Source of the DNA: Gammaproteobacteria bacterium
GTDB lineage: Bacteria > Pseudomonadota > Gammaproteobacteria > Xanthomonadales > SZUA-36
Length of the DNA stretch: 52,271 nucleotides
Direction: 5' to 3'
NCBI GenBank assembly: GCA_024277815.1
Contig: JAJRUM010000006.1
Span: 1 to 52,271, forward strand
Part shown: positions 5,190-40,383 of the stretch, in pieces
Layout: each line of letters begins with the position of its first letter
Position numbering within the stretch: the first letter of the stretch is position 1
The notes under the pieces: model-generated
What the model saw: only the letters and a program-made list of their open reading frames with translations
Databases searched by the model: none
What the model was told of the DNA's origin: nothing
Translations under genes and position numbers: made by a program

Positions 5190-5205
5190 GACAGAAGATT
5201 ATCAG

Positions 5206-5223
5206 GACATGTCATGACATGTC
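5206..5223. promoter_or_regulatory. perfect 18-bp palindrome, probable antitoxin operator
   Basis: GACATGTCATGACATGTC equals its own reverse complement. It also contains a direct repeat of GACATGTCA (5206-5214 and 5216-5224). It sits 17-34 bases upstream of the RHH antitoxin ATG, where autorepressor operators of RHH toxin-antitoxin modules lie. Binding is inferred. Confidence 0.7.
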
Positions 5224-5305
5224 AATTATATTGCCAGCAAATAACCTTGAGGTGACCGCGGTGTACGGCACAGCTACTTGGCGGATCTGGCCACCGGCGT
5301 CATGG

Positions 5306-5325
5306 TGTCCACCTGTAAGTGGACA
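5306..5325 (-). terminator. hairpin at the end of the Rhs gene (terminator-like, no T-run)
   Basis: TGTCCAC (5306-5312) and GTGGACA (5319-5325) form a perfect 7-bp stem with a 6-base loop, abutting the TGA stop (5326-5328) of the Rhs gene. The stem can be lengthened by three pairs after one mismatch. No T-tract follows on the minus strand, so intrinsic termination is uncertain. Confidence 0.35.
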
Positions 5326-8300: not shown

Positions 8301-10635
8301 GGGTGCTGTTACCTTCCGCGTCCATGGTCAGAACCCGATTGCCCCGGACGTCATAACCATAGCTTTGCTGCAGATTGCCAAGGGCGTCTTGCACTTCAAC
8401 CAGATTGCCCCGGGCGTCATAATTCATACGCGTCACCCGCCCCATCGGATCAGTAATACTGGTCACCCTGTTCCCCGGGTCATAGGTTCTTGATGTCGTA
8501 TGACCAAGGGCATCGGTCTGTGACAATATATTCCCCGCGCTATCAAATGTTTGCGTGGTGGTCTCGCCTATGGAGTTGGTACGACTGACCTGGTTGCCTT
8601 GTGCGTCATAGCTGTACAGGGAGACATTGCCCAATGGGTCGGTCATAGAGATGATATTGCCGTTGATATCGTATTCCAGAACCGTGACGCTACCGTCTGC
8701 ATCAGTCAACACTTCCTGCCTGGAACCCATGTCATGCGTATAGGCGATAATCCTGCCATCGGCATCGGTAGAGCTGATCAATCTTCCACCGGTATCGTAT
8801 TCATTGCGCCGGACAACGCGATTGAGTGGATCAATCACACCGATCAAACCATGCTGATAATTATACTGAAACCAGGTGGTATTGCCTTCGGCGTCGGTAT
8901 GTGAGAGCAGGTCACCGGTGTCACTGTAAGTATAGGTCTGAATATTGCCTTCCGGGTCACTGATCTGGGTGATTCGACCACTGGTATCACGCTGGAATAG
9001 GACCGACTTTCCGGCTGAATGGAAAATTCCACCGTCTGTAAAAGTAAGTGTGTTGCCGTTGCTGTCCTCAATACGCTCTACACCATTGACCTTATGAATC
9101 GTAACTTTTGTACCATCCGCAGCGGTGTAAAGAAAACGGACCGGGTCATAGACTTTGTTGCTGATATCATCCAGCAACTGAACAGCACCAGGCTGTGAAT
9201 CGAGGATGGACAGGTTGTTGTTATCCAGGCTTTGTAGTGAACCAAGTGTGTCAGGGCGCGCAACATAGCTGGCGCGGTTGGCAAGTGGTGGAAATGGTGT
9301 AATGACAGACGTATCCGGGCTTATCCTGAGGTCAAACTCTTCAACCCTGCCATTGGCCATGGTGATGCTGACCTTGTGCTCATCCGAAGGAGCCAGCAGG
9401 TAGGCCAGGCCAGACTTGAAAACCTCCCAGCCACCACCAGGAATCCTGTTGGTTCGCAGACGTAATGTCTGGACGCCAAAACTCCAGCCAATACCAAAAT
9501 CTCCCTGGCCTTTATCCCGACTGTCATAACTGCGATTTATGATAATCGGCAAGCCACTCATGGGGATCTGCAGGTCAGTGAAGTTCAGGGTGAAATTACC
9601 CACCTTCATTTCTCCATCTGCCTGAACGCTAATCTGCGCTACCGTCTGGTTGCCACCCGTATCAAACACCGTCAAACGAAGGGTATACAGGTCGTTGATC
9701 AGCATGGTTGGGTCAAACCGCCCCAGCACACCGGCAGTAACCTGGCTTGTGCTGTTGGCAATTTCGGTAAAGTTCTGCTCGCCTGCAGCGGCGATCCCGA
9801 TCGTGTACTTGAGGAAATTGGTATCCGTGGCTGTACCGATAATATCGACGGGTTTAGTCACTGTAGTGTTGGCGGCGGGCGCGGTAATTTCCGCAACCGG
9901 AATCTCAACATCGCCCGGTACCCGGTCCACGACCGTAATGCTGGCCGAACCCGAGACAAGCCCTTTGGATACTGTAATTAAAAATGTACCCGCTGTTGGC
10001 GAGCTGAATTCAGGCCCATCTGACCAGGTCGCAATGGCCGTCATATTCTGGCTGGTGCCATCGTCAAAAATACCAACGGCACCGAGGCTCAGAATTTCGT
10101 CTGTCAGGATAGTATCGGTGGCGGGCAACACCAGGATTTCCACCGGTGGACGTGACGCATCCACGCCATCGCAGTCTTCATCGACGCCGTTGGCCGGGAT
10201 ATCAACGGCACCCGGGAATATGGTGTCATCGTTGTCATTGCAGTCACCCAGGTTTTCGGTAAACCCATCACCGTCATCATCCACATCTTCAGGCGCGGGG
10301 CCCAGCGAAATAAGCAAGTCAACCTTGCTGCCAAACTCCGCAACAGCACCACCCACAGGTGTCTGGCCACTGACCGCCCCGGCCGGGATGCTCGGATGGT
10401 TGAAACTCGACACCCTACCGGTCACGAAACCATCGGCAACTAGCATGGATTCAGCCTGGGCACGGATTTCTCCTACCACATCCGGCACCATGGCGATGTT
10501 TCGCACGGTGAGCGTATACGTCTGCAAGGAAGACAGCCCGCGCAAATCCGAGACTTTTGCCGTCACCATGTGGTCGCCGAGGTCTGCCACCGCGGGTGTC
10601 CAGCGCAACAGGCCGGTCGGTCCGTCGATGGTCAT
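5326..10635 (-). CDS. Rhs/YD-repeat protein, C-terminal part of a gene split by an in-frame stop
   Basis: The 1769-residue open frame is the downstream part of one giant gene: it follows the 10636-14724 frame without any shift, separated only by TGA. Visible order: end of an Ig-like repeat (MTIDGPTGLLRWTPA), a PASTA-like domain (about 50-112), a MopE-type metal-binding motif (DVDDDGDGFTENLGDCNDND, about 118-160), two Ig-like domains (about 165-340), the Rhs entry region (INRSYDSRDKGQGDFGIGW), several dozen YD repeats (about 550-1480) and the Rhs core (YMRARYYDPASGRFVSRDPF, LYANNNPINFSDPNG, about 1520-1595). The last ~185 residues are hydrophobic and glycine-rich and match no toxin motif I know. 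YD repeats form a cocoon-like shell around the C-terminal cargo in this family. The ATG right after the TGA would allow reinitiation, but that product lacks a signal peptide. Confidence 0.85.
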   Translation of the reverse strand: MTIDGPTGLLRWTPAVADLGDHMVTAKVSDLRGLSSLQTYTLTVRNIAMVPDVVGEIRAQAESMLVADGFVTGRVSSFNHPSIPAGAVSGQTPVGGAVAEFGSKVDLLISLGPAPEDVDDDGDGFTENLGDCNDNDDTIFPGAVDIPANGVDEDCDGVDASRPPVEILVLPATDTILTDEILSLGAVGIFDDGTSQNMTAIATWSDGPEFSSPTAGTFLITVSKGLVSGSASITVVDRVPGDVEIPVAEITAPAANTTVTKPVDIIGTATDTNFLKYTIGIAAAGEQNFTEIANSTSQVTAGVLGRFDPTMLINDLYTLRLTVFDTGGNQTVAQISVQADGEMKVGNFTLNFTDLQIPMSGLPIIINRSYDSRDKGQGDFGIGWSFGVQTLRLRTNRIPGGGWEVFKSGLAYLLAPSDEHKVSITMANGRVEEFDLRISPDTSVITPFPPLANRASYVARPDTLGSLQSLDNNNLSILDSQPGAVQLLDDISNKVYDPVRFLYTAADGTKVTIHKVNGVERIEDSNGNTLTFTDGGIFHSAGKSVLFQRDTSGRITQISDPEGNIQTYTYSDTGDLLSHTDAEGNTTWFQYNYQHGLIGVIDPLNRVVRRNEYDTGGRLISSTDADGRIIAYTHDMGSRQEVLTDADGSVTVLEYDINGNIISMTDPLGNVSLYSYDAQGNQVSRTNSIGETTTQTFDSAGNILSQTDALGHTTSRTYDPGNRVTSITDPMGRVTRMNYDARGNLVEVQDALGNLQQSYGYDVRGNRVLTMDAEGNSTLHKYDAAGNQIERVDPLGNISTFNYDANGRVTSRLDSFGKVTSTRYDGRGLKVLNTDPLGRNTQFDYTVTDFLQGVSDPAGNSASQTFDAAGQVVSETDMLGNTVVNTYDLKGNLTSITDPLNRKAVLEYDVLGRRTKSISRGGSVVEARYDPLGRLIERIDARGNSTFYEYDAAGRNTKVTDALGNFTTYSYDPAGNQIAMVDARGNSFSFQYDALDRPVKTTYPDGSFETMEYDALGNVIAETDALGQTSSYAYDANSNLVRVVDAAGQQTGYAYDSEDRLVSQTDARGNISTFTYDDLGRRTTRVFADGTVEVRAYDIAGDLTQSTDPNGNQTTLGYDAKGQLLSRTFADGSQELYTYNVTGQLLTGTNAWGVVRYSYDLDDRLLQIDNPDGSLVAYAYDAQGNRTSVTTQTSLLKLPRTTTSTYDVLNRLASVTDPDGNVTTYTYDEIGNLVSIDNPNGVLTSFAYDSRNYLSLIVHTSGVGEVARYQYQVNALGDRTGVSFSDGSLVEYEYDSLRRLTRETHKDKLAVITYEMRYGYDAVGNRVSATDKDGNVQTFTYDSGDKLVSVDTDNYFYDANGNLVARSDIAGTTLFSFDFEDQLQRVTTPLDQVDYTYDAGGERVRREVPGTATNFLVDPYNTNDVSQVLVDYDDTATPSAEYVYGHKLLSQNRAGNRHYMQQDGSLNVRLLTDATGSVTDTYDFQAFGVPIAETGTTDNPYRFAGQRQDPLTGLSYMRARYYDPASGRFVSRDPFAGYLRDPISLHRYLYANNNPINFSDPNGTFAIPSVLVSMAISATISFSVAVVSGKKGKELIYETIIGAAFGAIGGPLGKALGTLFTKSKVLLTLVRNPAVGKYAGRLVAAIPATVLGAAEDFSKALVTGDAAKDGYAGKFATAVALNFVFNIFLGPFSLEAGKVPKQILVKGTVRKGRLMVKTLVPKEIQVTVLKFLEGDASAFNTIETFIWEFTKLIVGEIQDLPGGNPGIAR

Positions 10636-13600
10636 TCAGGGTGGCCCGTCAATCAGCTCGAATACAAGCAAGTCAAACTCTGCATCTTTGGCCTGCAGGC
10701 CGTGCAGGTACTCAATATCCACCGTGGCGGTCGTATCGGGTGTCGAGGTAAATTCGGGTGCCGTATTGGGTGCCAGTACATCGATATAAGCCGTCGCAAT
10801 ATTCGATTCCTGTCCGGCTGCAAGCGCCTTGTAAGTGAACCGGTCCATCTTGTCCGGATTATCGGGGGTGAAGGCATTTTGCCGATAGTTGTTCAGCCCC
10901 GGGGTCAGCCAGTTGTGTTGCTCGACCAACGGGATGGTCAGGTCCTGGTTGACATTGGTTACGTGAAAGGCGTGTTGGTTCCAGGTATCAGGCGCACGAA
11001 CCCAGTCGTCATCGATACCGCCAAGAACCCGAATACCACGGGTGTCTTCAGCACTACCAAGACCGGTTGACGCCACCACGATTTCTGCGTGCCCGTCACT
11101 GTCAACATCGGCAACAACCGTATACTCGACCGCGGTGGACGAGGTGAGCGGCATTCTGAACAGCAGTTCACCGTCCGAGCCCCTGAACACCTGAATATAC
11201 TGTTCGTCATGATGCACGACTTCCATGCTGCCATCGCCATCAAAATCAAATATGGCAGATCCGGTAACACCGCTCCGGTCTTCAATGGGCTGGCGCCACA
11301 TCAGGCGACCATCGGTATCCACCACTTCATAAAACAGTGAGTTGGCCCGGCCGATTTCAGGCTTGCCGTCGCCATCAAAATCGGCAACCGTAGGCGGGCC
11401 ACCAGCCCAGGTGGTTTTTGTCGTCCACTTCAGGGTGCCGTCATGTTCATAGAGATAAAGCTGGGAGCCCGCCGCAAAAACAATTTCAGCATAGGGGTCA
11501 TCGTCAAAATTGCCCGTGGCCGCCCAACCTGCGAACGGGCTTGCTGTATTCCACAACAAAGTGCCGTCCGCGCTATAGACATAGCCTCCGGCGATAACCT
11601 CCACCGCCCCATCGAGGTCAATATCTGCTGCAATGGGAATAATCCGTCCCGGTTGCGGAATACTCCCCGACCAGAGCAGGGTCCCATTTGCATCCAGCAC
11701 CTGATCTCCTATCAGGATTTCCGGTAAGTCCTGGCCATCTATGTTGGCAATGGTTATACCCGACCAGTTGTTCTGTTTGAGTGGATCGCTGCGCCATTTG
11801 AGCGTTAAATCGTGTTCGAAGGCGATGAGTTCATAGGTAGGCGCTTGACGTGAACCCCACTCTGCTGCCGCCAGAATTTCGGGCAGGCCATCCCCGTCTA
11901 TATCACCCACGGCCATGGATACATAGCCACGCACGAGCAAATCCGGGTCCAGTAATACCTGCTTCTCGGCACCGGTGCGGCCATCGAGAACGACGATGTA
12001 GGCTGGGTAAGTGATGCCTTCAATAGGAATACCTGCACTGAACAGGATCTCCTGGAAGCCATCGCCATCGAGATCCACCACCAGCGGAACATTGCTGACA
12101 TGGCCTGCAGGCTTGACGCCATCAACCAGCATCGATGTCTCAGTCCATGACCACTCCTCTTGTGGATACAACGGCCAGATTAACCCATCCCCGAAGACCT
12201 TGAACTCACTGATGCCCGGCCCGCGCGTTGGGTCATTCCAGGTCACGCCCTCAAAACGGGCCGTCTGTACATCGGTGACCGCTGGCACTGGCAGCGTAAA
12301 ACCGGTATGCAGGTCGGTCAGGGTGACCACACCGCTGGTCCATAATTCAATGCCGGAGCTATCCAGCAAACGAAACTCCCCGGTCAGAAAATACCGTGGC
12401 GTATCCGGGTTACCAGTGGAAAACCTCGGGCCGAACAATTGAATCTCGCGAACGGTGACCCCCTGATCAGGGAACGTGATGTCCATAGCTGGTGCCAGAT
12501 CTGCGTCCTCGCTGTGCCAACTGGTCAGAAGGCGCTGATCAACCGCCTTTTCATCATCATTCAGGGCTCGCCTGTTACTGCTGGCGGAGGTTGAAAAACG
12601 GGCAAAACGTGTCAATTCGATGTTGGTTTTGTATTTGAACAGCTGTACCACGGCCGAGCCCATTACTTTCAGCTCGGCAAATCCGGGGTGATCGGATTCA
12701 TCTGCGGTCGGTGTGAAACGCACCTGCCTGACCATTTCAACCGCAGGTACCGACACCACAATATCCCGGTCCGGCGCCGGCAGGGCGAGATCACCACTGT
12801 TAAACAGCTCAACCCCGTTCTGATCGAACAACTGGAAAATCCCCGAGAGGAAGTCGAAGCCATCAGGCGATTCCCGATTGCCGAACATCTGTATTTCAGT
12901 AACAGTGACATCCACGGCAAAGCCTATCTCAAAGAACGGACTGGAACCCAGGTTGACTGCGTCACCAAGGTCGGCAAACCACGACGTGTTCAGATCACCA
13001 TCGAGGGCGCGGAATGCTTCACGGTCGTCTGTTTCGGTCCAGGTACGGTCGATAAAGGTACTGCTTGCATTGATAGAAACCGGCTCGGCCAGCTGCGCCA
13101 TATCGCCCGTAACCGGTGTTGCTACCAGGTTACTGACAGGTGATAGCGGTGCATATTCAAATGAACCATCAGGATTCAGAGTCAAACTACCGTTGGCAGG
13201 AGCGCTGACCAATTGCGTGGTCATCGGGTCGCCGTTGGGATCGGAGTCGTTGCCAAGCACCCCGGGAGCCGGGATGACCAGTGTTTCGATACCGTGGGCG
13301 GTGTACAGGTCATCCACCGCCACCGGTGGCTTGTTGATATCATTGACCGTCACAATAAAGCTGCCCGCATCCGCAGCACCGGCAGCATCTGTCACCCGCA
13401 CGGCAACATCATGTACACCAATCCGGGTCTCATCAGGTGTCCAGCTAATTGCACCCGTAACCGGATCAATCGACATGCCTGCGGGTGCGTTTATGAATTC
13501 AAAAGTAAGGGTGTCGGCGGGGTCTGCATCAGTGGCGCTGGCAAGTACATCCAGCAGTTCATCAAATACCAGGTTCTGGTCACCGGGCACGGTCAACACG

Positions 13601-14724
13601 GGTGCTGCGTTGCTTTGCTGCGTGGGTACCGGTTGCACGACCTCAACGATGAAGCTCTCCGTATCCGTCAGGCCACCCAGATCGGTAACCAGCGCCACCA
13701 CATTGTTGGCACCAAGATCACCCACTGTTGGCGTCCAGCTCAGAACACCACTCGCCGGGTCAATGCTCATACCCACCGGTGCGGCCGGCAGACTGAAAGT
13801 CAAAACATCACCCACATCGGGATCGACCGCAAACAATGGTGTCTCAAAAGGCACATCAAGCTGCAGCAACCGGTTACCCGGGGGTATCAGGTCCGGGGCA
13901 TTATTGACTTGCGGTGGCGGGGGGGGTGGTGGCGCCGTTGTGGACGCGCAAATCGTGTCCAGCACATCAACCACCAGATCCTGGTTACAGTCCGGGTCGC
14001 CGGGCGCGACGGCGCGCTCCAGTATTTGCGCTACGATGACCGGAATATCGCCGGCATTCACCAGACCATCATTGTTGGCATCGCCGGGCAGTCCCACCGC
14101 TGCACGCGCGATGGTTGAGCTGAATAAAGTCAGCCCGAGGAAAATTGAGAACGACACGCCAGCAAGACCACGCTGGACAAACACCCAGACAGTCCCCATC
14201 AGCAACAGGATCAGCAATACGATGGCCAGTGCCCCGAGCGCCGGAATAGCGATGGTATCCGCCAGCGTTATCGTTACACTGCCGTCGGCAACACCGGTTG
14301 CCATAACCGGCTGTGCCGCAGCATTGGACATCACCAGGTTATCAATGACCAGAGGGTAGGTTGCAGCCTGTGCATTGGCGGACAACAACAGGCGCACATC
14401 GGCGAGACTGCCACTGACCAGGGGTGTTTGCGTGGCGGTGGTGATGACAAAGCGCAGTTGGCCCGGTTGTATTTCCTGCCAACTGAGACTGTGGCCTGCC
14501 AATGCCGTGCCGGCAAACACTGCTTGCGGACTGAGTGCTGCCGCATCAAACGTCAGATCAAATTGAAGAGCCACCACCGAGCCATCGGCCACGAAATTAA
14601 CCGGGATGGTAACCTCCTGACCGGGCCCGGCTGTGGCGCCCCCCCCCACTAAATCGGGCGCGGCAAACAATGTGCTGGAAAAAAATAAGGCTATGCCTGT
14701 CAGTATTGCTCTCAGTGTTGCCAT
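10636..14724 (-). CDS. secreted cohesin/dockerin/Ig/beta-propeller protein, N-terminal part of the split Rhs gene
   Basis: The 1362-residue frame starts with a signal peptide (MATLRAILTGIALFFSSTLFAA). Then come a cohesin-like beta-sandwich (about 25-152), a hydrophobic IPTL-CTERM-like segment (IPALGALAIVLLILLLMG, about 160-185), a second hydrophobic, signal-peptide-like stretch (about 187-209), a dockerin-like pair of EF-hand loops (DANNDGLVNAGDI at 215, DCNQDLVVDVLDT at 245), a seven-proline linker, Ig/putative cadherin-type repeats (pattern GM.IDP.(T/S)G.(I/L)SWTP), a VCBS/cadherin-like repeat (GVLGNDSDPNGDPM), two discoidin-like repeats, and an FG-GAP/VCBS-type beta-propeller rich in DxDGDGxxEI. 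It ends FELIDGPP then TGA; the expected next residue of the repeat is Gly, and the following frame continues the repeat. Probably a surface or secreted adhesin/toxin-delivery protein, now interrupted. Confidence 0.85.
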   Translation of the reverse strand: MATLRAILTGIALFFSSTLFAAPDLVGGGATAGPGQEVTIPVNFVADGSVVALQFDLTFDAAALSPQAVFAGTALAGHSLSWQEIQPGQLRFVITTATQTPLVSGSLADVRLLLSANAQAATYPLVIDNLVMSNAAAQPVMATGVADGSVTITLADTIAIPALGALAIVLLILLLMGTVWVFVQRGLAGVSFSIFLGLTLFSSTIARAAVGLPGDANNDGLVNAGDIPVIVAQILERAVAPGDPDCNQDLVVDVLDTICASTTAPPPPPPPQVNNAPDLIPPGNRLLQLDVPFETPLFAVDPDVGDVLTFSLPAAPVGMSIDPASGVLSWTPTVGDLGANNVVALVTDLGGLTDTESFIVEVVQPVPTQQSNAAPVLTVPGDQNLVFDELLDVLASATDADPADTLTFEFINAPAGMSIDPVTGAISWTPDETRIGVHDVAVRVTDAAGAADAGSFIVTVNDINKPPVAVDDLYTAHGIETLVIPAPGVLGNDSDPNGDPMTTQLVSAPANGSLTLNPDGSFEYAPLSPVSNLVATPVTGDMAQLAEPVSINASSTFIDRTWTETDDREAFRALDGDLNTSWFADLGDAVNLGSSPFFEIGFAVDVTVTEIQMFGNRESPDGFDFLSGIFQLFDQNGVELFNSGDLALPAPDRDIVVSVPAVEMVRQVRFTPTADESDHPGFAELKVMGSAVVQLFKYKTNIELTRFARFSTSASSNRRALNDDEKAVDQRLLTSWHSEDADLAPAMDITFPDQGVTVREIQLFGPRFSTGNPDTPRYFLTGEFRLLDSSGIELWTSGVVTLTDLHTGFTLPVPAVTDVQTARFEGVTWNDPTRGPGISEFKVFGDGLIWPLYPQEEWSWTETSMLVDGVKPAGHVSNVPLVVDLDGDGFQEILFSAGIPIEGITYPAYIVVLDGRTGAEKQVLLDPDLLVRGYVSMAVGDIDGDGLPEILAAAEWGSRQAPTYELIAFEHDLTLKWRSDPLKQNNWSGITIANIDGQDLPEILIGDQVLDANGTLLWSGSIPQPGRIIPIAADIDLDGAVEVIAGGYVYSADGTLLWNTASPFAGWAATGNFDDDPYAEIVFAAGSQLYLYEHDGTLKWTTKTTWAGGPPTVADFDGDGKPEIGRANSLFYEVVDTDGRLMWRQPIEDRSGVTGSAIFDFDGDGSMEVVHHDEQYIQVFRGSDGELLFRMPLTSSTAVEYTVVADVDSDGHAEIVVASTGLGSAEDTRGIRVLGGIDDDWVRAPDTWNQHAFHVTNVNQDLTIPLVEQHNWLTPGLNNYRQNAFTPDNPDKMDRFTYKALAAGQESNIATAYIDVLAPNTAPEFTSTPDTTATVDIEYLHGLQAKDAEFDLLVFELIDGPP

Positions 14725-30788: not shown

Positions 30789-30959
30789 GTACTTACAAAC
30801 CCTGAAGCACAACAGCGGAGAGCGCTAAACTCATGTTGCCGGCAAAGCCCAAAACATGCATTAAACCCGCAGCTTTTATTTTTGTGGGCTATACTTTTCT
30901 AAACTGGAGGTCGTGGAAGGGCCGTTGATAGTTTAATTCACTCATAAAAAATAAGAGAT

Positions 30960-32420
30960 TTGGATTATTTAAAGCAACTAACTGACTGGTTAAGTTCGAA
31001 TGAATCCGCGTTCTCGGCACTGGCTGCAATTCTGGTAATTGCAGGCGTTGCTTACGGTGCGATCAGATCATTTTATTCGTCTTTTAAAAGCGGTGACCAA
31101 ACCCGGGACACGGGTGCGCAACTACTTGCAGCACCGGCCAACCCCGAATCCGCACTCAATCCGGCCGACTCTGACCCATCCGCACCGATCTACAAGGATC
31201 ATTACTCAATCGCGGTAATGATGTTCAGAAGCCTGTCTAACTCTGAAGATGATGCCTATATAGCCGCAGGTATTTCATCTGAAATCATCGCTATGGTCAC
31301 ACCGATTCCGGATATCCGGGTCAGTTCCCGCCTCTCGTCTATCCAGTGGCAAGGCGATGAAAACGACGTCAAAAGCATGGCTGAGCATATGAATGCCGGG
31401 TTTGTGCTGACGGGCAGCCTGCAGCGCCAGGGTGAGCGTATACGTGTGGTGGGCCAATTGACGGATGTCGATGCTGACAACGAAATCTGGGCACATATCT
31501 ACGATCGGAATATTGAGGACCTGTTTGAAGTGCAGGCTGACATCGCCCGCTCAATTGTCGGCGCAATCCTCGGCGAGGTGCGATTGGCAGAAACACGGCT
31601 GATGCACAAAACGCCGGAGCACCAGCTGGATGCCTGGGGACTGGTGCAGAAAGCCTACTATTTCTGGCTCAATGCATTTTCTCCACAAGGCATATTCGAC
31701 GCCTGTGACTACCTGCGCCAGGCTTTGGTCATTGATCCCGAATACGCAACCGCAAACGCGGCACTGGCCATGCTGCTGACGCAGCAGATGAACGCCCGCA
31801 TCTGCAAAGACTACGAGGCCTGTGCCACGGAAGCCGAGGAGTTGATGGAAAAAGCCTACCTGCTGGCACCCAACGATATCGATGTATTGGAAAACGCCGG
31901 TGTCACCTGGATGAATATTGGCCAGGGGTTACGTGCACAACGGGCTTTGAGGCACTCGCTCGAACTGGCACCGCTGAACCTGGTGGCACGCGGCTACCTG
32001 GCACTGGCACTGGCGCTGACGGGCGGCGAAGCAGGTGCACAAGAAGCGCGGGAATTGATTGACGACAATCTGGCCACCGCGCCGAAACACCCTTCAGTGC
32101 CGTATTGGTATTTCTTCCAGTCCATTGCCGAACAATATCTAGGCAACCACGATGACAGCATTGAACTGGCGGGCAAGTGCCTGACCCGGCAGCCGGAATG
32201 GGTACACGGCTGGCTGGTGATTGCCAATTCGCAGTGCGAGAAAGACGACCTGGAAGCCGCCAACGTGGCGATTCAAAATGCAGCTGCAATCAACCCCTAC
32301 CTGACCGTACCGCTGTACGCACAGAACGTTTATCGCATCACCGGCAGCCAGGAAAAAGCCCTGCCCTTCGTCGGTGGTTTTGCCCGCCAGGGCATGATCG
32401 ATGACCAGCCAGCCCGGTAA
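30960..32420 (+). CDS. TolB-like/TPR membrane protein, first gene of the oxidative cluster
   Basis: A 486-residue protein with one N-terminal membrane helix (about 17-38), a linker, then the TolB N-terminal-like/FlgO-like domain common in TPR-adenylate cyclase proteins (SIAVMMFRSLSNSEDDAYIAAGISSEII, GFVLTGSLQRQGERIRVVGQL, IWAHIYDRNIEDLFEVQADIA) and several TPR units to the end. The start is TTG at 30960 after AAGAGA; no ATG fits the conserved frame. Two larger relatives lie at 40476-42233 and 47248-48945. It lacks both a cyclase and a wHTH domain. It is 19 bp from the SMP-30-like gene, so it may be a sensor or scaffold for the operon. Function is not known. Confidence 0.75.
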   Translation: MDYLKQLTDWLSSNESAFSALAAILVIAGVAYGAIRSFYSSFKSGDQTRDTGAQLLAAPANPESALNPADSDPSAPIYKDHYSIAVMMFRSLSNSEDDAYIAAGISSEIIAMVTPIPDIRVSSRLSSIQWQGDENDVKSMAEHMNAGFVLTGSLQRQGERIRVVGQLTDVDADNEIWAHIYDRNIEDLFEVQADIARSIVGAILGEVRLAETRLMHKTPEHQLDAWGLVQKAYYFWLNAFSPQGIFDACDYLRQALVIDPEYATANAALAMLLTQQMNARICKDYEACATEAEELMEKAYLLAPNDIDVLENAGVTWMNIGQGLRAQRALRHSLELAPLNLVARGYLALALALTGGEAGAQEARELIDDNLATAPKHPSVPYWYFFQSIAEQYLGNHDDSIELAGKCLTRQPEWVHGWLVIANSQCEKDDLEAANVAIQNAAAINPYLTVPLYAQNVYRITGSQEKALPFVGGFARQGMIDDQPAR

Positions 32421-32439
32421 CTTTTGAAAAGGAACGACT

Positions 32440-33558
32440 ATGCCGTTACTCGATAACACCTCGATTGAGTTGGTTTGCTCCGGACTGGGATATCCGGAGG
32501 GGCCGGTTTATTGCAGCAACGGTGACATCATCCTGGTCGAAATACGGGGTGACGAACGCAAAGATGCGGCGACTTGCGGTGCAGACAAGAACAAATTCTC
32601 ACCCTGCATTTCCAGAATCTCACCCACCGGCAAGCGCACCATCATCACCGAAATACCCGGCGGACCCAATGGTGCTGCCGTCGGCCCTGACGGCGCAATA
32701 TACATTTGTAATGACGGTGGTTTTGACTGGATACCCATACCACCGCCGCCGGCGGACCCCATCCTGTGGTTCGGCGGCAACCAGCCCGCCTGGTACAGCG
32801 GCGGGAAACTACAAAAAGTGGATCTCAGCACAGGCACCTTGACGGATATCTACACCGAGTGCAGCAGTCGCATGGTGCGGCAAACTGACCCGGCCAAAAA
32901 AATCGACCATTATGTCAAAGGGCTGGACTGGACACCGCCCTACCGGCTTTGCGGCCTGGACGACCTGGTGTTTGATAGCAGTGGCGGGATGTGGATAACC
33001 GACTACGGCAAGAAACGTGAGCGTGAGCAGGACGTGACGGCCATCTATTACGCAGCACCCGACGGCTCAGACATTCGCCAGATGATTTACCCGCTGATGT
33101 GCCCCAATGGCATCGCCCTGTCACCCAAAGGCGACAGGCTGTACTTTGCACTGACATTCGAACGCCGGATCATCTATTACAAATTATCGGCACCCGGCGT
33201 CATTGAGCCCAACCCTGTGACCATCGATGGTTCCTATCTGTTAACTGCTGATCTGCCCGGGCAGGCATTGCTTGATTCGATGGCGGTTGATGTCGACGGC
33301 AATGTATATGTTGCCACCATGCTGCCCGACGGGCTCAACCCGATGAGCAATGGTGGTATCACGACCATCTCGCCTGATGGCAAAAACATTGATTTTATTG
33401 AACTGAGTCCCGGCAATGGACTGCCCGCTCCAATGCCATCCAATATCTGTTTTGGCGATGACGACATGAAGACCGCTTACGTGACCTGTGGCGCTTCAGG
33501 ACACTTGCTCAAAATGCAGGCCTCAGTTCCAGGCCTGAAACTTGAATTCAACTGTTGA
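32440..33558 (+). CDS. SMP-30/gluconolactonase-like protein (LRE family)
   Basis: A six-bladed beta-propeller lactonase-like enzyme, 372 residues, no signal peptide. Candidate metal ligands seen: Glu20 in GYPEGPVY, an Asn in PGGPNGAAVGPDGAIYICNDGGFDW, CPNGIALSPKGDRLYF, and an Asp in LDSMAVDVDGNVYVAT. Family members hydrolyse lactones or act on related esters; its substrate here is unknown. It follows the TolB/TPR gene with 19 bp and a good ribosome site (AAAGGA) before ATG 32440. An unusual insertion with two cysteines (CGADKNKFSPC) interrupts the N-terminal blade. It precedes a haem protein pair, suggesting it acts on an oxidised product in the same pathway. Confidence 0.85.
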   Translation: MPLLDNTSIELVCSGLGYPEGPVYCSNGDIILVEIRGDERKDAATCGADKNKFSPCISRISPTGKRTIITEIPGGPNGAAVGPDGAIYICNDGGFDWIPIPPPPADPILWFGGNQPAWYSGGKLQKVDLSTGTLTDIYTECSSRMVRQTDPAKKIDHYVKGLDWTPPYRLCGLDDLVFDSSGGMWITDYGKKREREQDVTAIYYAAPDGSDIRQMIYPLMCPNGIALSPKGDRLYFALTFERRIIYYKLSAPGVIEPNPVTIDGSYLLTADLPGQALLDSMAVDVDGNVYVATMLPDGLNPMSNGGITTISPDGKNIDFIELSPGNGLPAPMPSNICFGDDDMKTAYVTCGASGHLLKMQASVPGLKLEFNC

Positions 33559-33645
33559 AGAATCTCCGATCAAATTCCGGATCCACATCCTGGATTCAAA
33601 ATAAATCATTGGTTCTTAGGGTAGAAACATTCCTGGGAGGGAGTT

Positions 33646-35847
33646 ATGGCCGATAAACAGCCAACACCGTGGCCGAAGAAAATTCTTAAGTGGGTACTGG
33701 TCAGCATTCCTGTTCTGCTGCTGATTGTCATTGCCGGTGCGTATGGTTACCTCTGGTATATCTCAAACTTTCAAAACATCCCTGAGCTCAGGCCGGTTGA
33801 TCGCATTGTCTACCTGAATGAGCAGAAAAATGCCTGCCTGCAGGATTCAGCAAACGCAGATGGCGAAACAGCCCCGGCGGATGATGATGACCCGCTTGCA
33901 ATACGCGCCACATCGTCCTACCAGGGCTGGTGCAATGATTACCGGCAGAACTTTTACCGTACCCCGCAAGGCACCGACTTCTTCGGCCTGCAATATGCCT
34001 GGTTACCCAGTCTGGAAAGGCCGGTGGGCAAGAAACAGCTGATTACACGCGAGTTTATGCGCCGGCTTGGCTTTGTTTATGACCCGTCCGAAAATATCAA
34101 CCCCAACAACCCCCTCGACATGCCTATCGGCCTGACCTGGCACTACGCCAAGGACAGCAACGATAAAATTATGGATGTCAGCTGTGCTGCCTGCCATTCG
34201 GGGCAAATGACCTACGAGGGAACGCTGATCCAGATCGATGGCAGCCCGGGTGGACATGCTTTGCCGGCACTGCAGCCCTCGCAGTTTTTACCCAATGTTT
34301 ACGCCTCCTTGTTCACTACGATGGTCAACCCCTTCAAGTTTTCCCGTTTCGCCGACAAAGTGCTGGTGGATGTGCCGGAAAAAGAGCTTTCTGCACAGAA
34401 AAAGCATCTGAAAAAGAAGGTTTGGAGCTCTATCTGGCAAGCGCTGGTGTTTGCCTGGTATAACCACGCGCTTTACCCCACGGTAGAAGGCTATGGGCGA
34501 ACGGATGGCCTCGGGCGCATCGCCAATACCGTTTATGGCGATGACTTGAGTCCGGACAACTATCGCATCGCCGATGCACCGGTGAATTACCCGCATGTAT
34601 GGGATATCTGGGCCTTTGACTGGGTGCAGTGGATGGGCTCTGTCAAGCAACCCATGGCGCGTAACCTCAATGAGTCCCTTGGCGTGCGCTCCAGGCTGGA
34701 TTTGACCAGCCCGGCAGGTGAAGGCCGCTACGATACCAGCGCGATGCTGCCGGAAATGCATTGCATTGAAATAACCCTGCAGCATCTGCAACCACCCACC
34801 TGGTCGGAAGAGCTGTTTGGTCCCATCGACAGGCAGCTGGCGGCGCAGGGCAAACAACTGTTTGAGCAGACCTGCAAGACCTGCCACGGCCCCTTTCCAA
34901 GCAACCCGGAAATACCGATCTCGGACCAGCCCATTGCCAAACGCACTGCCTGTGCGACCTGCCATGGGCCAAGTGTGACCGACCCGATAAAAGAAGATGC
35001 CGCCTCCGACAGTGATTACCACCAGGTGGCGACCCACCAACGAACCTATACGGCATACCCCGATCCGGATCCGGGCGATCATTATGAACTACAGACCAAG
35101 CGCTATGAGGTCTGGCAGGTTATCCACATTCCGCTGGAATACATTGGCACCGACCCGCAGTCGGCGTTGAATATGATCAACTACCGCTATGACATCAGTT
35201 CACTGAAGCCGGAAACCACTCCCATGACAGGGTGGGAACCGGGCATCAAGGAAGAAGCATGGTCGAACATCGATTTTGCAACCGGCTTGCGCTATATCGG
35301 CGGCCAGGTGAGGTTTTCGCAGTACGGCAACATGGGCATCATGGAAGGACCAAACGTGCTTGACCGGGCCGCCATGGAGGATCTCAACGGCTTCGGCGAA
35401 GAGGACAACCCATACGCCTGGCGCGCCTATCGGCCGCGACCGCTGCAGGGCATCTGGGCCACTGCGCCGTATTTACATAACGGCTCTGTACCCAGCATTT
35501 ACCAGTTGTTATTGCCCGCAGATGAACGCGACCAGACTTTCTACCTGGGCCGCAAGGAATTTAACCCGGCGACGCTTGGGCTGAGGGTAGAGAAATACAA
35601 AAATGCCTTCAAGTTCGACACTACAAAGACTGGTAACTCGAACCTTGGCCACGAATTTGACGACGGGCTCTGCGGCAGCGGTGTCATCGGATTCCAGATT
35701 CCGGAGCGCCCCGGGTTCTGCCGTCAATTCACAGAACGCGAACGCATGGCATTGCTGGAGTACCTGAAAATTCATGATGATGGCAAACGGCCAAACCCCC
35801 GTACGGCACCCCATTGCAGCAACTCAAAATGGCCGGAGAAAGCCTGA
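33646..35847 (+). CDS. membrane-anchored RoxA/MauG-like cytochrome c with three haem motifs
   Basis: A 733-residue protein with an N-terminal membrane anchor (about 12-34), exported side facing the periplasm. It carries three CxxCH motifs: C180-AAC-H184, C410-KTC-H414 and C436-ATC-H440. The C-terminal part (RPRPLQGIWATAPYLHNGSVPSIYQLL) is the conserved haem pocket region of the cytochrome c peroxidase/MauG superfamily; overall length and spacing recall the rubber oxygenase RoxA/RoxB group, which oxidatively cleaves polyisoprene. Those known enzymes have two haems, so the third is notable. Preceded by a strong ribosome site (GGGAGGGAG), and its TGA overlaps the ATG of the catalase-like gene. 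RoxA-like chemistry is inference from resemblance. Confidence 0.78.
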   Translation: MADKQPTPWPKKILKWVLVSIPVLLLIVIAGAYGYLWYISNFQNIPELRPVDRIVYLNEQKNACLQDSANADGETAPADDDDPLAIRATSSYQGWCNDYRQNFYRTPQGTDFFGLQYAWLPSLERPVGKKQLITREFMRRLGFVYDPSENINPNNPLDMPIGLTWHYAKDSNDKIMDVSCAACHSGQMTYEGTLIQIDGSPGGHALPALQPSQFLPNVYASLFTTMVNPFKFSRFADKVLVDVPEKELSAQKKHLKKKVWSSIWQALVFAWYNHALYPTVEGYGRTDGLGRIANTVYGDDLSPDNYRIADAPVNYPHVWDIWAFDWVQWMGSVKQPMARNLNESLGVRSRLDLTSPAGEGRYDTSAMLPEMHCIEITLQHLQPPTWSEELFGPIDRQLAAQGKQLFEQTCKTCHGPFPSNPEIPISDQPIAKRTACATCHGPSVTDPIKEDAASDSDYHQVATHQRTYTAYPDPDPGDHYELQTKRYEVWQVIHIPLEYIGTDPQSALNMINYRYDISSLKPETTPMTGWEPGIKEEAWSNIDFATGLRYIGGQVRFSQYGNMGIMEGPNVLDRAAMEDLNGFGEEDNPYAWRAYRPRPLQGIWATAPYLHNGSVPSIYQLLLPADERDQTFYLGRKEFNPATLGLRVEKYKNAFKFDTTKTGNSNLGHEFDDGLCGSGVIGFQIPERPGFCRQFTERERMALLEYLKIHDDGKRPNPRTAPHCSNSKWPEKA

Positions 35848-37052
35848 TGCTTAACAGGATAAAGCACTTTAGCAAACGCTTTTTGAAATGGCTTGCGCTG
35901 GCATCAGCCGCCTGGCTGGGACTGGTTTTGATCGCCCTCGCCTGGCAAATGATCAGCGCCAAGGTCCGGGATCCGGATGCCGACCTGGTCAAACAGGAAA
36001 TGCAACCGGCGGTTACCGAGATCGTTGAATCAGCCAGGGAAATTGTCAGCATTTATAGAACCCCGGAATATAAACGCGATGCCCACTCCAAAGCCCATGG
36101 TTGCGTCAGGGCCAACATGGAAGTGTTGCAGAATGAAAGCCAGTACCGCTACGGCATCTTTGCGAAGCCTGCCCGTTACGAGGCATGGGTACGTTTTTCC
36201 AATGGCACGACACCGGCAATCCCGGACTATAAACGTGATGCCCGGGGTATGGCTATCAAGGTCATGGGTGTTGAGGGCAAACAATTGCTGCCTGCCGCGC
36301 TGGCCGGCAGCACGCAGGATTTCCTGATGATTAACTCACCGGTGTTTTTTGTGCGCCGTATTGATGAATACCAGCAGTTGATGAACGACACCGCCCACGG
36401 CAAGCCTTTCAGGTATTTCTTTGCCAACTATTCGGTCAACCCGTTCAAATGGAAGTTACGGCAATTGGTGGTCGCCCTGAGTACGCGTAAGCCACCACCG
36501 GCAACGCCATTCTCGACCCAGTATTACAGCATGTCGGCCTATAAACTCGGCCCCAATGACGTTAAATTCAGTTCCAAAGCCTGTAATGCCATTTCCACCG
36601 AAGGCATTGATGACAAGCACCCCAATTTCTTGCGTGAAAGCCTCAAAAGCGTGCTCAGAAAACAGGACGTCTGCATGGAGTTGATGGTGCAGATTCGCGA
36701 CCCGGACGCACGCATGCCGATCGAAGACACGACCGTTGAGTGGTCTGAGAAGGTCTCCCCTTTCGTCTCGGTTGCCCGTTTGCTGATCCCGCGCCATGAT
36801 TTTGACACGCCGCAACAGAACCGCATGTGTGAGGATATTTCGATGAACCCCTGGCACGGTATTGCAGCCCACCAGCCCATCGGCAAGATCAATGAAATGC
36901 GTAAAGAACTGTACCTGCACACCGCAGCATTCAGGCGCATGCGAAATGGCGTTATGTTGGTAGAACCGGACAGTTGGTGCGACAGCCTGAAAGAATATTG
37001 TCCTCAGTCGGCTGCTGCTGAACCACTGGCAACCCCGCCACCCACTGAATAA
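35847..37052 (+). CDS. catalase-related haem protein (allene-oxide-synthase/catalase superfamily)
   Basis: A 401-residue protein with an N-terminal membrane helix (about 14-34) and a single-domain catalase-like fold. Catalase-type features: distal-side HSKAHGCVR with His80/His84, RYEAWVRFSNG, the haem-face DFLMINSPVFFVRR, and a C-terminal RxxxY motif (Arg352, Tyr356 in MRKELYLH) that would supply the proximal haem ligand. It is much shorter than true catalases. Relatives handle lipid hydroperoxides or act as haem-dependent oxygenases. I chose ATG 35847, overlapping the previous stop (TGATG) with GGAG eight bases before it, rather than an ATG 33 bases upstream. The MFS gene follows after 7 bp. 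Cosynthesis with the cytochrome is likely. Confidence 0.82.
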   Translation: MLNRIKHFSKRFLKWLALASAAWLGLVLIALAWQMISAKVRDPDADLVKQEMQPAVTEIVESAREIVSIYRTPEYKRDAHSKAHGCVRANMEVLQNESQYRYGIFAKPARYEAWVRFSNGTTPAIPDYKRDARGMAIKVMGVEGKQLLPAALAGSTQDFLMINSPVFFVRRIDEYQQLMNDTAHGKPFRYFFANYSVNPFKWKLRQLVVALSTRKPPPATPFSTQYYSMSAYKLGPNDVKFSSKACNAISTEGIDDKHPNFLRESLKSVLRKQDVCMELMVQIRDPDARMPIEDTTVEWSEKVSPFVSVARLLIPRHDFDTPQQNRMCEDISMNPWHGIAAHQPIGKINEMRKELYLHTAAFRRMRNGVMLVEPDSWCDSLKEYCPQSAAAEPLATPPPTE

Positions 37053-37059
37053 TGAGTAG

Positions 37060-38781
37060 ATGGCCATGACTTTTACCCTCGCTAACAGTTCGCGCACCCG
37101 TTACATGACCGGGGCAATGATGTATTTCGGGCAGGGGATTCCACAAGGCCTGCTGAGTATAACCATACCCGCATGGCTCGCCAGCCAGGGCGTCAGTGCT
37201 GCGGACATCGGTTCTTACCTGGCCGTCATCATTCTGCCCTGGGCATTCAAACTGGTGACCGGACCGCTGATGGACCGCTATCAGTTCCCGGCTATGGGTA
37301 AACGCCGGCCCTGGGTGCTCGCAGCACAAGCCGGCTTGTCGCTGTCATTGCTGGCACTCATGTTGATCGAAAATCCTGCCGAGCAGATCGGCCTGTTGAT
37401 GCTCATTGGCGTGCTCGTTAACAGTTTTGCCGCTACCCAGGATGTTGCGGTTGATGGTATGTCGATCGATCTTACACCGGTCAGGGAACAGGGCCGGCTG
37501 AACGCGTTCATGAGCTTTGGAAAGGCGGTTGGCTGGGCCGTTACAGCGGCGGTATCGGGTATGCTGTTGGCAACCTGGGGCATGCAGGTCACGGCGATCG
37601 TTGCGTCAGTAACTGCTGGTCTCGTACTGCTTGCGTTCGTGGCTGTGCTGGAACATGAGGGTGAACGCAAACTGCCCTGGAGCGCTGGTAAAGCAGCACT
37701 GACGGGGCAGCAACCCACTTCTTTCGGCGCGGTATTCAGTGGCGTTAACAAGGTGCTTTGGACACGCACCAGCCTGGTCGTCATGCTCATCATGCTGACT
37801 GACGGTATCATCGCGGGCTTCGGTCAGGCACTGATGCCGATCGCCGCTGTGAAGCTGTTTGGTTACAGCACCCAACAATGGTCACAACTGGTCGCCGTTA
37901 TGGGACTGATTGGTGCCGCCATCGCGCTCTCGCTGGGGCCTATGATTGATCGCTTCGGCGCCAAGCGCATACTGCTCCTGACAGTCTCACTGGTCGGTTT
38001 ACACGCAGTTCTGATAGCACAGACCCAATACCTGTGGCAGGACACCACCTACGTTAAAGTCATGTTGTCCTTCTGGATACTGATGGTGCCGGTGGTGATG
38101 GTCTGTATTATCGCGCTGGCAATGGCTGTGTGTTCATCGGCCAATTCAGCAACACAGTTTGCTATTTACATGTCGGTGGCAAACCTCGGCTACTCTGCCG
38201 GTTCCAAGGTCTACGGGATGGTCGCCGAACGGTCAAGCTACGTGGAAACCTACATGCTGCTCGCCCTGTTGATCGTGACTTTGATTTTCGTATTGATTTT
38301 TTACCGCCACAAGCACGAACACGCCGGGACGCCGGCGCACAAAAACGCTCCAAAATACACCATCGGAACCGGCAGCGGTGGCGGCGGCGTCTATTTCTCA
38401 GGCGCGATACGCTGCCCGAAATGCAGGGCAGATATGGAGCAGGTTGAGATTGAAGGCGTCACCATTGATCGCTGCATCTTCTGCAGCGGGATCTGGTTCG
38501 ATGCAGGAGAAGTCGAGGCACTGAGCCACAAGCAGGCTGCCGTCACCATCGATACTGGCAGCGCTAAGGTCGGAAAGCAGCATAATCACATTGATCATTA
38601 TCCCTGCCCGCGCTGTGGCGGCAGCATGGAAAAAAAGGTCGATTCGCGCCAGCGGCACATTTGGTACGAGTCATGCACTGACTGCAATGGATCGTTCTTC
38701 GATGCCGGCGAATTTCTTGATCTTTCAAAGCTGACCCTCTCAGATATTTTCAAAAGACTGGTCACGCCCGTACGCGAATGA
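37060..38781 (+). CDS. AmpG-like MFS transporter fused to two zinc-ribbon domains
   Basis: A 573-residue protein. Residues about 15-425 are a 12-helix MFS transporter of the AmpG/PAT type (GQGIPQGLLSITIPAWLASQG, ILPWAFKLVTGPLMDRY, DVAVDGMSIDLTP). The cytoplasmic C-terminus holds two TFIIB-type zinc ribbons: C452, C455, C472, C475 with CSGIWFDAGEVEAL, and C516, C519, C539, C542 with CNGSFFDAGEFLDL. Such ribbons are normally small separate proteins; fusion to a transporter is unusual and there is no frame break at the junction (GGGGVYFSGAIRCPKC). It follows the catalase-like gene with 7 bp. Two in-frame ATGs (37060, 37066) are possible starts. Substrate is unknown. Confidence 0.85.
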   Translation: MAMTFTLANSSRTRYMTGAMMYFGQGIPQGLLSITIPAWLASQGVSAADIGSYLAVIILPWAFKLVTGPLMDRYQFPAMGKRRPWVLAAQAGLSLSLLALMLIENPAEQIGLLMLIGVLVNSFAATQDVAVDGMSIDLTPVREQGRLNAFMSFGKAVGWAVTAAVSGMLLATWGMQVTAIVASVTAGLVLLAFVAVLEHEGERKLPWSAGKAALTGQQPTSFGAVFSGVNKVLWTRTSLVVMLIMLTDGIIAGFGQALMPIAAVKLFGYSTQQWSQLVAVMGLIGAAIALSLGPMIDRFGAKRILLLTVSLVGLHAVLIAQTQYLWQDTTYVKVMLSFWILMVPVVMVCIIALAMAVCSSANSATQFAIYMSVANLGYSAGSKVYGMVAERSSYVETYMLLALLIVTLIFVLIFYRHKHEHAGTPAHKNAPKYTIGTGSGGGGVYFSGAIRCPKCRADMEQVEIEGVTIDRCIFCSGIWFDAGEVEALSHKQAAVTIDTGSAKVGKQHNHIDHYPCPRCGGSMEKKVDSRQRHIWYESCTDCNGSFFDAGEFLDLSKLTLSDIFKRLVTPVRE

Positions 38782-38925: not shown

Positions 38926-40383
38926 ATGATGGGAATTGTCGGCTCTGTAACAAGGCAGGTGACACCGCTGGCACGAATTGGTGCCTGCTTTGTCTTGGTG
39001 GCTATGTTTGCTACCAGCGTCTATGCCCAGCCCAAAGTTACTTTCAAATTTGAAAATACCTTTGGCAAAAAAGGGTTTTATGACCGGGGCCCGACTTTCG
39101 ATACCAATTCAATCCCACCTGAGGGTTTCAATTCCCCGACCGGTGTAGCCTTTCAGTCAGCCGGTAGAATTATCGTGGCAGACCGGGGCAACCTGAAGCT
39201 GCAATCCTGTGACACACTCGGCGACTGCCTCTGGATCGGCAGCGATGCTGCCTTCGGCACCCGCAATCAACCCGGCACTTTTGATTTACCGCATGGCGTA
39301 TCTGTTTCAAAAAACGGATTAATCAATATCGCCGATGAGGACAACCACATGTTGCAAGTCTGTGACAGCGGCGGCGGTTGCAAGGCCAGTGGTGGATCCT
39401 TTTCTGAAGATACCGCCTGCTCGCCCTCGTTAGGCAAGTGGTGTTTTCCACAGGACACCGCGGTTGATTCGCTTGGTCATATCTATGGTATGGATACCGG
39501 CAATAACCGCATTCAGGTACTGCAAGCTGGCACCCTGGTTGCAGTTGGCGTGTTTATGCGGCCCGGGTCAGCACCCGGGCAACTTAACAACGCCCGGGGT
39601 ATCGCCATCGATAAGGACGACCGCATTATTATTGCCGACAGTGGCAACAACCGTGTCCAGATCTGCGACCGGGATGCAAATTGCACGGCCTTTGGCAGCA
39701 TGGGCTCTGCCGTTGGCCAGTTTAATGCGCCGGTTGGCATTGATGTCGACGCACTCGGTCGCATTTGGGTAGCAGATACCGGTAACAACCGCATCCAGGT
39801 TTGTGACTACGCAGGTGATTGCGTGGCTTTCGGTGGGCCGGGAACAGGTGAGGGGCAGTTTGACCAACCGCAGGATGTCGCGACACACCCCTCCGGGCGG
39901 GTCGCTGTTGTGGATACAGGCAACAATCGCATCCAGTTATTCAGGACTGAAGCCAGCTTTAAAATGAATGCAGGGCTGAATGACGCCTGGTTCGACCCGG
40001 CTACCGATGGGCAAGGGTTTTTCATTACGGTGTTTCCCGACCTTGGGCTGGTTCTACTGGCCTGGTTCACCTATGACACGGAGCTGCCGCCTACCGATGC
40101 GCAAGCCAACCTCGGCGATGCCGGTCACCGCTGGCTGACTGCGGTGGGACCCATTGACGGCAACAAGGCAACCATGGACGTTGAAATTGCATCGGGTGGT
40201 CTTTTTGACCAACCAGGCAACATCGAGCGCGTCACCGACGGCACCATCACCTTAAACTTTGATAACTGTGAAAGCGGTACCGTCACATACGACATTCCGT
40301 CTATCAACCGACAAGGTACAGTCCTGATCAAGCGGGTCGCAAGTGACAATATAGTGCTGTGCGAAAGCTTGTCGACCAACTAA
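38926..40383 (+). CDS. secreted NHL-repeat beta-propeller protein
   Basis: A 485-residue exported protein. The signal peptide ends near VYAQP (about residue 35). Residues about 60-345 hold roughly six NHL-type repeats (for example GQFNAPVGIDVDALGRIWVADTGNNRIQVC), with paired cysteines at recurrent positions in several repeats. The last ~135 residues form a domain seen at the C-terminus of gammaproteobacterial secreted proteins (NDAWFDPATDGQGFFITVFP, LAWFTYDTE). NHL propellers bind proteins or ligands; no catalytic site is evident. ATG 38926 has GGAAG nine bases upstream; ATG 38929 is a near alternative. It is separated from the oxidative cluster by 144 bp with its own candidate promoter. Confidence 0.87.
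   Translation: MMGIVGSVTRQVTPLARIGACFVLVAMFATSVYAQPKVTFKFENTFGKKGFYDRGPTFDTNSIPPEGFNSPTGVAFQSAGRIIVADRGNLKLQSCDTLGDCLWIGSDAAFGTRNQPGTFDLPHGVSVSKNGLINIADEDNHMLQVCDSGGGCKASGGSFSEDTACSPSLGKWCFPQDTAVDSLGHIYGMDTGNNRIQVLQAGTLVAVGVFMRPGSAPGQLNNARGIAIDKDDRIIIADSGNNRVQICDRDANCTAFGSMGSAVGQFNAPVGIDVDALGRIWVADTGNNRIQVCDYAGDCVAFGGPGTGEGQFDQPQDVATHPSGRVAVVDTGNNRIQLFRTEASFKMNAGLNDAWFDPATDGQGFFITVFPDLGLVLLAWFTYDTELPPTDAQANLGDAGHRWLTAVGPIDGNKATMDVEIASGGLFDQPGNIERVTDGTITLNFDNCESGTVTYDIPSINRQGTVLIKRVASDNIVLCESLSTN

Follow-up and report, generated by a model that had tools for sequence, protein, structure and literature searches.

A conserved four-gene unit with a RoxA-like cytochrome and a catalase-related protein: a candidate system for fatty-acid hydroperoxide chemistry

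Genes at the locus

We analyzed a stretch of 52,271 nucleotides (hereafter, the window) from a gammaproteobacterium of the Xanthomonadales (SZUA-36; contig JAJRUM010000006.1 of assembly GCA_024277815.1). Five closely spaced genes on its forward strand encode a TPR protein, an SMP-30-like protein, a RoxA-like cytochrome, a catalase-related protein, and a transporter:

30960..32420, + strand: gene 1, TPR protein (from the open reading frame (ORF) list); first gene of the conserved unit
32440..33558, + strand: gene 2, SMP-30/gluconolactonase-like beta-propeller (PF08450); second gene of the unit
33646..35847, + strand: gene 3, RoxA-like three-haem cytochrome (NCBIfam NF040606, the family of PA2077/PA2078)
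35847..37052, + strand: gene 4, catalase-related haem protein with an N-terminal hydrophobic helix; fourth gene of the unit
37060..38781, + strand: gene 5, AmpG-like major facilitator superfamily (MFS) transporter fused to two zinc ribbons; a neighbor, outside the conserved unit

The initial annotation had described a five-gene cluster, and the ORF coordinates confirm its genes, their positions, and the spacings of 19, 87, -1, and 7 bp. (The -1 spacing is with the ATG at 35847; the mechanical ORF of gene 4 is 35814-37052, and we count its residues from 35814.) In a promoter/terminator scan that we did not use for our conclusions, there were 8 promoter-like sites (6.1 expected) and 16 terminator-like sites (7.9 expected). 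Two of the promoter-like sites lie just before gene 1 (30925-30952) and at the end of gene 4 (37026-37053), and no terminator-like site on the + strand fell in the gaps of the first four genes.

Four of the five genes are a conserved unit

The genes for the TPR protein, the SMP-30 protein, the cytochrome, and the catalase-like protein form a real conserved unit. Seven other genomes, four of Arenicella type and three from the window's own family, preserve their order, so their being together is more than chance. The Arenicella-type genomes are an uncultured Arenicella (locus L043) and three genomes of one genus (G203, G315, and G410), and their units are 50-58% identical to the window's. The other three (G019, G027, and G032) belong to one other genus of the window's family. 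By tblastn, their proteins are 39-41% (TPR), 48-51% (SMP-30), 32-35% (cytochrome), and 41-45% (catalase-like) identical to those of the window, while the fourth sampled member, G035, has neither the cytochrome nor the catalase-like protein. Across 61 genomes (the window's own and 60 relatives), we found the catalase-like protein in 7, the cytochrome in 8, and both in 4; none of the nine same-genus genomes had either one. A single-sequence genome scan found nothing.

Gene 1 has weak TPR matches in Pfam, and its protein has one hydrophobic N-terminal helix, as judged by eye. Its orthologs lie at the equivalent position in the seven genomes (39-55% identity). Gene 2 matches SGL/SMP-30 (PF08450, E = 7.7e-31), and its orthologs, at the equivalent position in the unit, are 48-57% identical. 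The alignment of the SMP-30 proteins has seven rows, without that of G032.

The part of the five-gene claim that did not hold is the transporter. Gene 5 (MFS_1, E = 9e-31, with two Zn_ribbon_TFIIB stretches) is beside the unit in none of the seven other genomes. In six of these (all but the genome of L043), its relatives elsewhere in the genome were partial or weak in five and missing in G032. Full-length copies (67-75% identity; that of G006 with one in-frame stop) are present in three of the nine same-genus genomes, none of which has the unit, and the stretches around these copies had no match to the cytochrome, the catalase-like protein, or the SMP-30 protein. The fusion is a common family, as the zinc-ribbon domain is present in all 120 listed rows (read by eye, own protein included). 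Because the transporter is not conserved with the unit and is found apart from it, we rejected it as part of the system and consider the core to be four genes.

The cytochrome belongs to the family of PA2077 and PA2078

The functional sites of the cytochrome are:

34183..34197, + strand: haem-c motif 1, C180-A-A-C-H184 (C180, C183, and H184 invariant in 35/35 aligned cytochromes)
34630..34632, + strand: W329, the inter-haem tryptophan position (RoxA W302, PA2077 W251), from a PA2077-anchored alignment
34873..34887, + strand: haem-c motif 2, C410-K-T-C-H414 (C410, C413, and H414 invariant in 35/35)
34951..34965, + strand: haem-c motif 3, C436-A-T-C-H440, within an insert (kept in 5/5 window/Arenicella cytochromes)
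35467..35493, + strand: MauG/RoxA signature P608-YLHNGSVP (P608, H611, N612, and S614 invariant in 35/35)
35650..35652, + strand: H669, which by analogy with RoxA H641 and PA2077 H611 would bind the C-terminal haem as its sixth ligand (invariant in 35/35)

The description of this protein as a RoxA-like three-haem cytochrome holds: it matches RoxA-like_Cyt-c in Pfam (E = 1.3e-17), with CxxCH motifs at residues 180, 410, and 436. More specifically, it is a full-length member of NF040606 (459 bits, 2.5e-137, model positions 1-523 of 524; the curated cut-off is 150 bits), which also contains the PA2078 and PA2077 orthologs (488 and 529 bits). The NCBIfam models for RoxA, RoxB, and RoxC score 41.2, 49.0, and 45.9 bits, against cut-offs of 900-1000. 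CCP_MauG (PF03150) is absent from the five Pfam families that match at E ≤ 0.001, and without this match we rejected a classical CcpA/MauG peroxidase identity.

By analogy with RoxA H195, motif 1 would be the active-site haem. Motif 3 is absent from the remaining 30 cytochromes of the 35-sequence alignment, and the insert that holds it (residues 424-476) has a predicted local distance difference test (pLDDT) score below 50 in the structural model. Among 76 named cytochromes paired with a catalase-like gene, 75 have two CxxCH motifs and one (L043) has three. The cytochrome of L137, outside the unit, also has three, and its extra motif is at residue 17 of the mechanical ORF, not in the insert.

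With the model as query, RoxA was the sole Foldseek match at E ≤ 0.001 (5.7e-9), and MauG was the second-best fold. Of the RoxA-like residues, the haem ligands, the MauG signature, and the inter-haem tryptophan are kept. An equivalent of RoxA F317, beside the active haem, was not seen: the corresponding site of PA2077 (as given in the excerpts of PMC4496055) falls, by sequence alignment only, in a loop that is missing from the window cytochrome.

By eye, the N-terminus of the cytochrome is basic and leads into a hydrophobic helix, which the model places at residues 9-40. Haem c gets attached outside the cytoplasm. The body of the cytochrome is predicted to be periplasmic and membrane-anchored.

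The catalase-related partner

The candidate haem-pocket residues of the gene 4 protein were compared across 19 homologs with a cytochrome directly upstream:

36084..36086, + strand: distal His H91 (kept in 19/19)
36333..36335, + strand: distal Asn N174 (kept in 18/19; Asp in L114)
36900..36914, + strand: proximal haem ligand motif R363-K-E-L-Y367 (19/19 retain both Arg and Tyr)

This protein was also annotated correctly: it has the RxxxY motif (R363xxxY367) and a single Catalase domain in Pfam (2.3e-6; 27.4 bits, just above the cut-off of 25; profile positions 44-292 of 383). For profile searches and residue counts we used a deeper alignment of 26 catalase-like sequences. The structural model, which has middling confidence (built from 7 sequences; pLDDT 65.8, predicted template-modelling score 0.65), has the catalase/allene-oxide-synthase fold. 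Its best solved relative is the coral allene oxide synthase (AOS), narrowly ahead of catalases, with 14% identity in the structural alignment to 1u5u. The residue before the distal His is Ala in the window and Ala or Val in all 19 of the cytochrome-paired members. Because Thr66 of the coral AOS is missing at this position, we rejected a direct AOS label and do not claim an allene oxide product.

The gene 4 protein has a basic N-terminus and then a hydrophobic helix (by eye; the helix is also in the model). From the helices and charges read by eye, together with the haem-c motifs of its neighbor, we infer that this protein is anchored at the outer face of the inner membrane.

The cytochrome and the catalase-like gene are paired beyond the unit

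We scanned named genomes with profiles and examined the best 80 of 531 confirmed loci; 65 of these 80 are titled Pseudomonas or Stutzerimonas (counted by eye). A cytochrome gene is upstream of the catalase-like gene, on the same strand, in 76 of the best 80 loci (within 200 bp in 75), which is a figure biased to close relatives because it comes from the best 80 of 531. The exceptions are L046 (at a contig edge), L059, L095, and L112. L044 and L045 repeat loci of G027 and G032, and two of the 76 gaps are strongly negative (L060 and L085), reflecting mechanical catalase ORFs that begin too far upstream. Clustering of the neighborhoods put the cytochrome family at position -1 in 74/78 cases. Just 3 of the 76 paired loci have the TPR and SMP-30 genes as well.

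Of 369 Gammaproteobacteria, a set with less bias, 19 genomes have a cytochrome over the cut-off, 13 have a catalase-like protein above 100 bits, and 6 have both; these counts are genomes, not independent events. At most three candidates were scored per genome, and the 100-bit threshold selects 13 of the 41 genomes that match at E ≤ 0.001; the remainder scored 18-44 bits, as ordinary catalases would. The genes are adjacent in 4/369 genomes (the window's and three of Arenicella type). Fisher's test for co-occurrence gives p = 1.1e-5, or 1.0e-4 without the window's own genome, and it overstates independence because the four adjacent cases represent two genera.

Related loci and other genes in the window

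At L035 (G027), L036 (G032), and L130 (G412), catalase-like proteins without the distal His are paired with a protein of the animal haem peroxidase kind (PF03098). At L035 and L036, this pair is followed by two RoxA-like cytochromes in tandem. The first copy at L036, the second locus of G032 (9038-10972), has two in-frame TGA codons, so it is probably a pseudogene or an assembly error, and we excluded it from every alignment. L146 (G191) has a catalase-like gene without the distal His downstream of a gene that weakly matches DyP-type peroxidases, and at L042 (G055) a single ORF (5056-7983) encodes LodA-type amino-acid oxidase domains preceded by a catalase-like region. At L037 and L040 (G038 and G051), an NF040606 cytochrome gene overlaps a patatin-like phospholipase gene by 4 bp; a 7TMR-DISM-GGDEF gene is nearby, and no catalase-like gene was found at either locus.

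Two other families, each typed on one member, recur among the best 80 loci. A fatty-acid cis/trans isomerase (CTI) gene is ~2.6 kb downstream of the catalase-like gene in 10 of them (as at L055, 7462-9756). In 29, the opposite strand upstream of the cytochrome carries a gene for a sigma-54-dependent activator, a possible regulator (as at L052, 5213-6496).

The window has neighboring large minus-strand genes for an RHS-repeat protein (1769 aa, 5326-10635) and a cohesin/cadherin/FG-GAP protein (1362 aa, 10636-14724). It also encodes an NHL protein (38926-40383) whose C-terminal ~140 residues (about 343-483) recur across many proteins of its own genome and of nine same-genus genomes, and look like a shared C-terminal domain.

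Origin of the unit

All four genes resemble those of Arenicella, which belongs to another order, more than those of the window's own family. CcmF shows the opposite pattern (66-67% identity to G019/G027/G032 and 52-55% to G203/G315/G410). The unit is also missing from 9/9 same-genus genomes, not all of them complete, and the two observations together suggest that it was transferred as a block. CcmF is the one marker, or single yardstick, for this comparison because pyruvate carboxylase was spoiled by paralogs.

Proposed chemistry

The most economical reading, in our view, is fatty-acid hydroperoxide chemistry. Outside the inner membrane, the three-haem cytochrome would add O2 to an unsaturated fatty acid. 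The resulting lipid hydroperoxide would be the shared intermediate, consumed at the outer face of the inner membrane by the catalase-related partner, which would convert it to a less toxic or signalling oxylipin. The partner would most likely be a hydroperoxide isomerase/lyase or a peroxidase. We infer this hand-over because the cytochrome shares a family with PA2077 and PA2078 and because the fold of its partner acts on fatty-acid hydroperoxides in corals. We see the case for oxygenation to hydroperoxides followed by conversion as evenly balanced. As guesses, the third haem might relay electrons to or from haem 2, and the SMP-30 protein might act in the cytoplasm on a lactone of the oxidised acid, opening it. 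SMP-30-related propellers open lactones of oxidised fatty acids.

According to the excerpts of PMC4496055, PA2077 converts oleate to 10-H(P)OME and requires both haems; it is lethal or toxic when overexpressed alone, and not when co-expressed with PA2078. Excerpts of the same paper and of PMC5155153 place the activity in the periplasm of P. aeruginosa. Patatin-like phospholipases, found with tblastn at seven related loci (G019, G027, G032, G038, G049, G051, and G058), fit a fatty-acid substrate. A weak blastp match to patatin at L135 did not recur by tblastn at 1e-8 and is not counted.

Several observations weigh against fatty-acid hydroperoxide chemistry. The cytochrome is just 31% identical to PA2077 and 30% to PA2078, and in a tree (with a long-branch warning) the window and Pseudomonas paired proteins do not group with PA2077/78. 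PA2078 with mutated haem sites retained activity (excerpts of PMC4496055), so membership in NF040606 does not by itself show haem dioxygenation. On the partner's side, Thr66 is absent, the model is of middling confidence, and Foldseek put the M. avium catalase-related protein first and AOS 26th, with near ties between AOS and catalases in both the Foldseek and VIA rankings. The catalase-like protein of L035, which lies upstream of two divergent cytochromes, no longer has the distal His. As to gene content, tblastn found no patatin at the window, Arenicella, or Pseudomonas loci, and the CTI neighborhood may be plain synteny. Besides the non-independence of the co-occurrence counts, the two genes are on different contigs in G116 and G252, and the contigs of G252 are too short to judge adjacency. 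The SMP-30 protein has no visible signal peptide (aligned N-termini read by eye) and looks cytoplasmic, so lactone opening by it, if any, would probably be cytoplasmic. Finally, we know of no activity for any catalase-paired cytochrome.

The main rival is defence of the envelope against peroxides: the cytochrome would act as a peroxidase, using electrons from respiration to reduce H2O2 or lipid hydroperoxides, with the catalase-like protein as a second scavenger, anchored in the membrane. NF040606 is named 'di-heme cytochrome C peroxidase', which keeps a peroxidase role in play, and the lack of a CCP_MauG match argues against it. So do the tested members of NF040606, which oxygenate fatty acids or convert their hydroperoxides (excerpts of PMC4496055), and RoxA, which has no peroxidase activity according to the excerpts of PMC6311187. 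We consider peroxide defence possible but rather unlikely. Oxidation of a different substrate in the envelope (a protein side chain, as with MauG, or a quinone, sterol, or aromatic compound), with the catalase-like protein just clearing by-product peroxide, would suit the rank of MauG among the fold matches and the small number of family members with a tested function; we think this improbable, as both of the tested members that we found act on fatty acids or their hydroperoxides (excerpts of PMC4496055). It is very unlikely that a polyisoprenoid or other alkene is cleaved oxidatively in the manner of RoxA and imported by the linked transporter: the Foldseek match to RoxA, the MauG motif, and the inter-haem tryptophan favor this model, but we rejected it as first choice on the NCBIfam scores, far under the cut-offs for RoxA/B/C, and the F317 equivalent was not seen and the transporter is outside the unit. 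Of the initial proposal that an unsaturated lipid or isoprenoid is oxidatively cleaved and then taken up, oxidative lipid chemistry fits, while isoprenoid cleavage and uptake are unsupported.

Returning to fatty-acid hydroperoxides, we tentatively suggest, with more doubt than for the chemistry itself, a widespread bacterial oxylipin pathway. A RoxA-like cytochrome would peroxidise membrane-derived unsaturated fatty acids and an anchored catalase-related enzyme would convert the products to a defined oxylipin, as a counterpart of the coral couple with a different oxygenase. In Arenicella and this organism, a third haem, a TPR protein, and an SMP-30 lactonase would have been added to the pathway, which would have moved between orders as a unit. 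If so, proteins labelled 'di-heme cytochrome C peroxidase' and 'catalase family protein' would gain a shared substrate, and a catalase-related hydroperoxide enzyme would be paired with a haem-c oxygenase. Because the gene pair is in dozens of Pseudomonas genomes, the idea, and the extent of this lipid-peroxide chemistry, can be tested directly in culture.

Comparison with known systems

To our knowledge, few systems of oxylipin synthesis in bacteria have been worked out, with the P. aeruginosa pair among the best studied. We found no cytochrome–catalase pair in the titles or abstract openings among the matches listed, in which the subscription literature is thinly covered.

The closest known system is PA2077 (10S-DOX) and PA2078 (7,10-DS), the 'FadCcp' subfamily in the excerpts of PMC4496055. 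The window cytochrome is a full-length member of the same NCBIfam family and has the FadCcp features: two haem-c sites, the MauG signature, the set of axial histidines, and the inter-haem tryptophan as in PA2077. The two-gene logic of an oxygenase plus a converter would also be shared. Unlike PA2077/PA2078, the window has a third haem-c motif, a catalase-related partner instead of a second cytochrome, and additional TPR and SMP-30 genes. RoxA, RoxB, and RoxC are more distant (41-49 bits against cut-offs of 900-1000), and no F317 equivalent was seen in the alignment.

The gene 4 protein resembles the coral AOS/hydroperoxide lyase (1u5u, 3dy5; excerpts of PMC5617202) and the M. avium protein (3e4w/3e4y) in its catalase fold, distal His and Asn, and proximal Arg-xxx-Tyr. 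It also shares with them a genetic link to a fatty-acid oxygenase, a presumed one in the window. Unlike coral AOS, the gene 4 protein has Ala instead of Thr before the distal His and has an N-terminal membrane helix. The coral proteins are fused to a lipoxygenase, whereas the window protein is unfused and its neighbor is a RoxA-like cytochrome.

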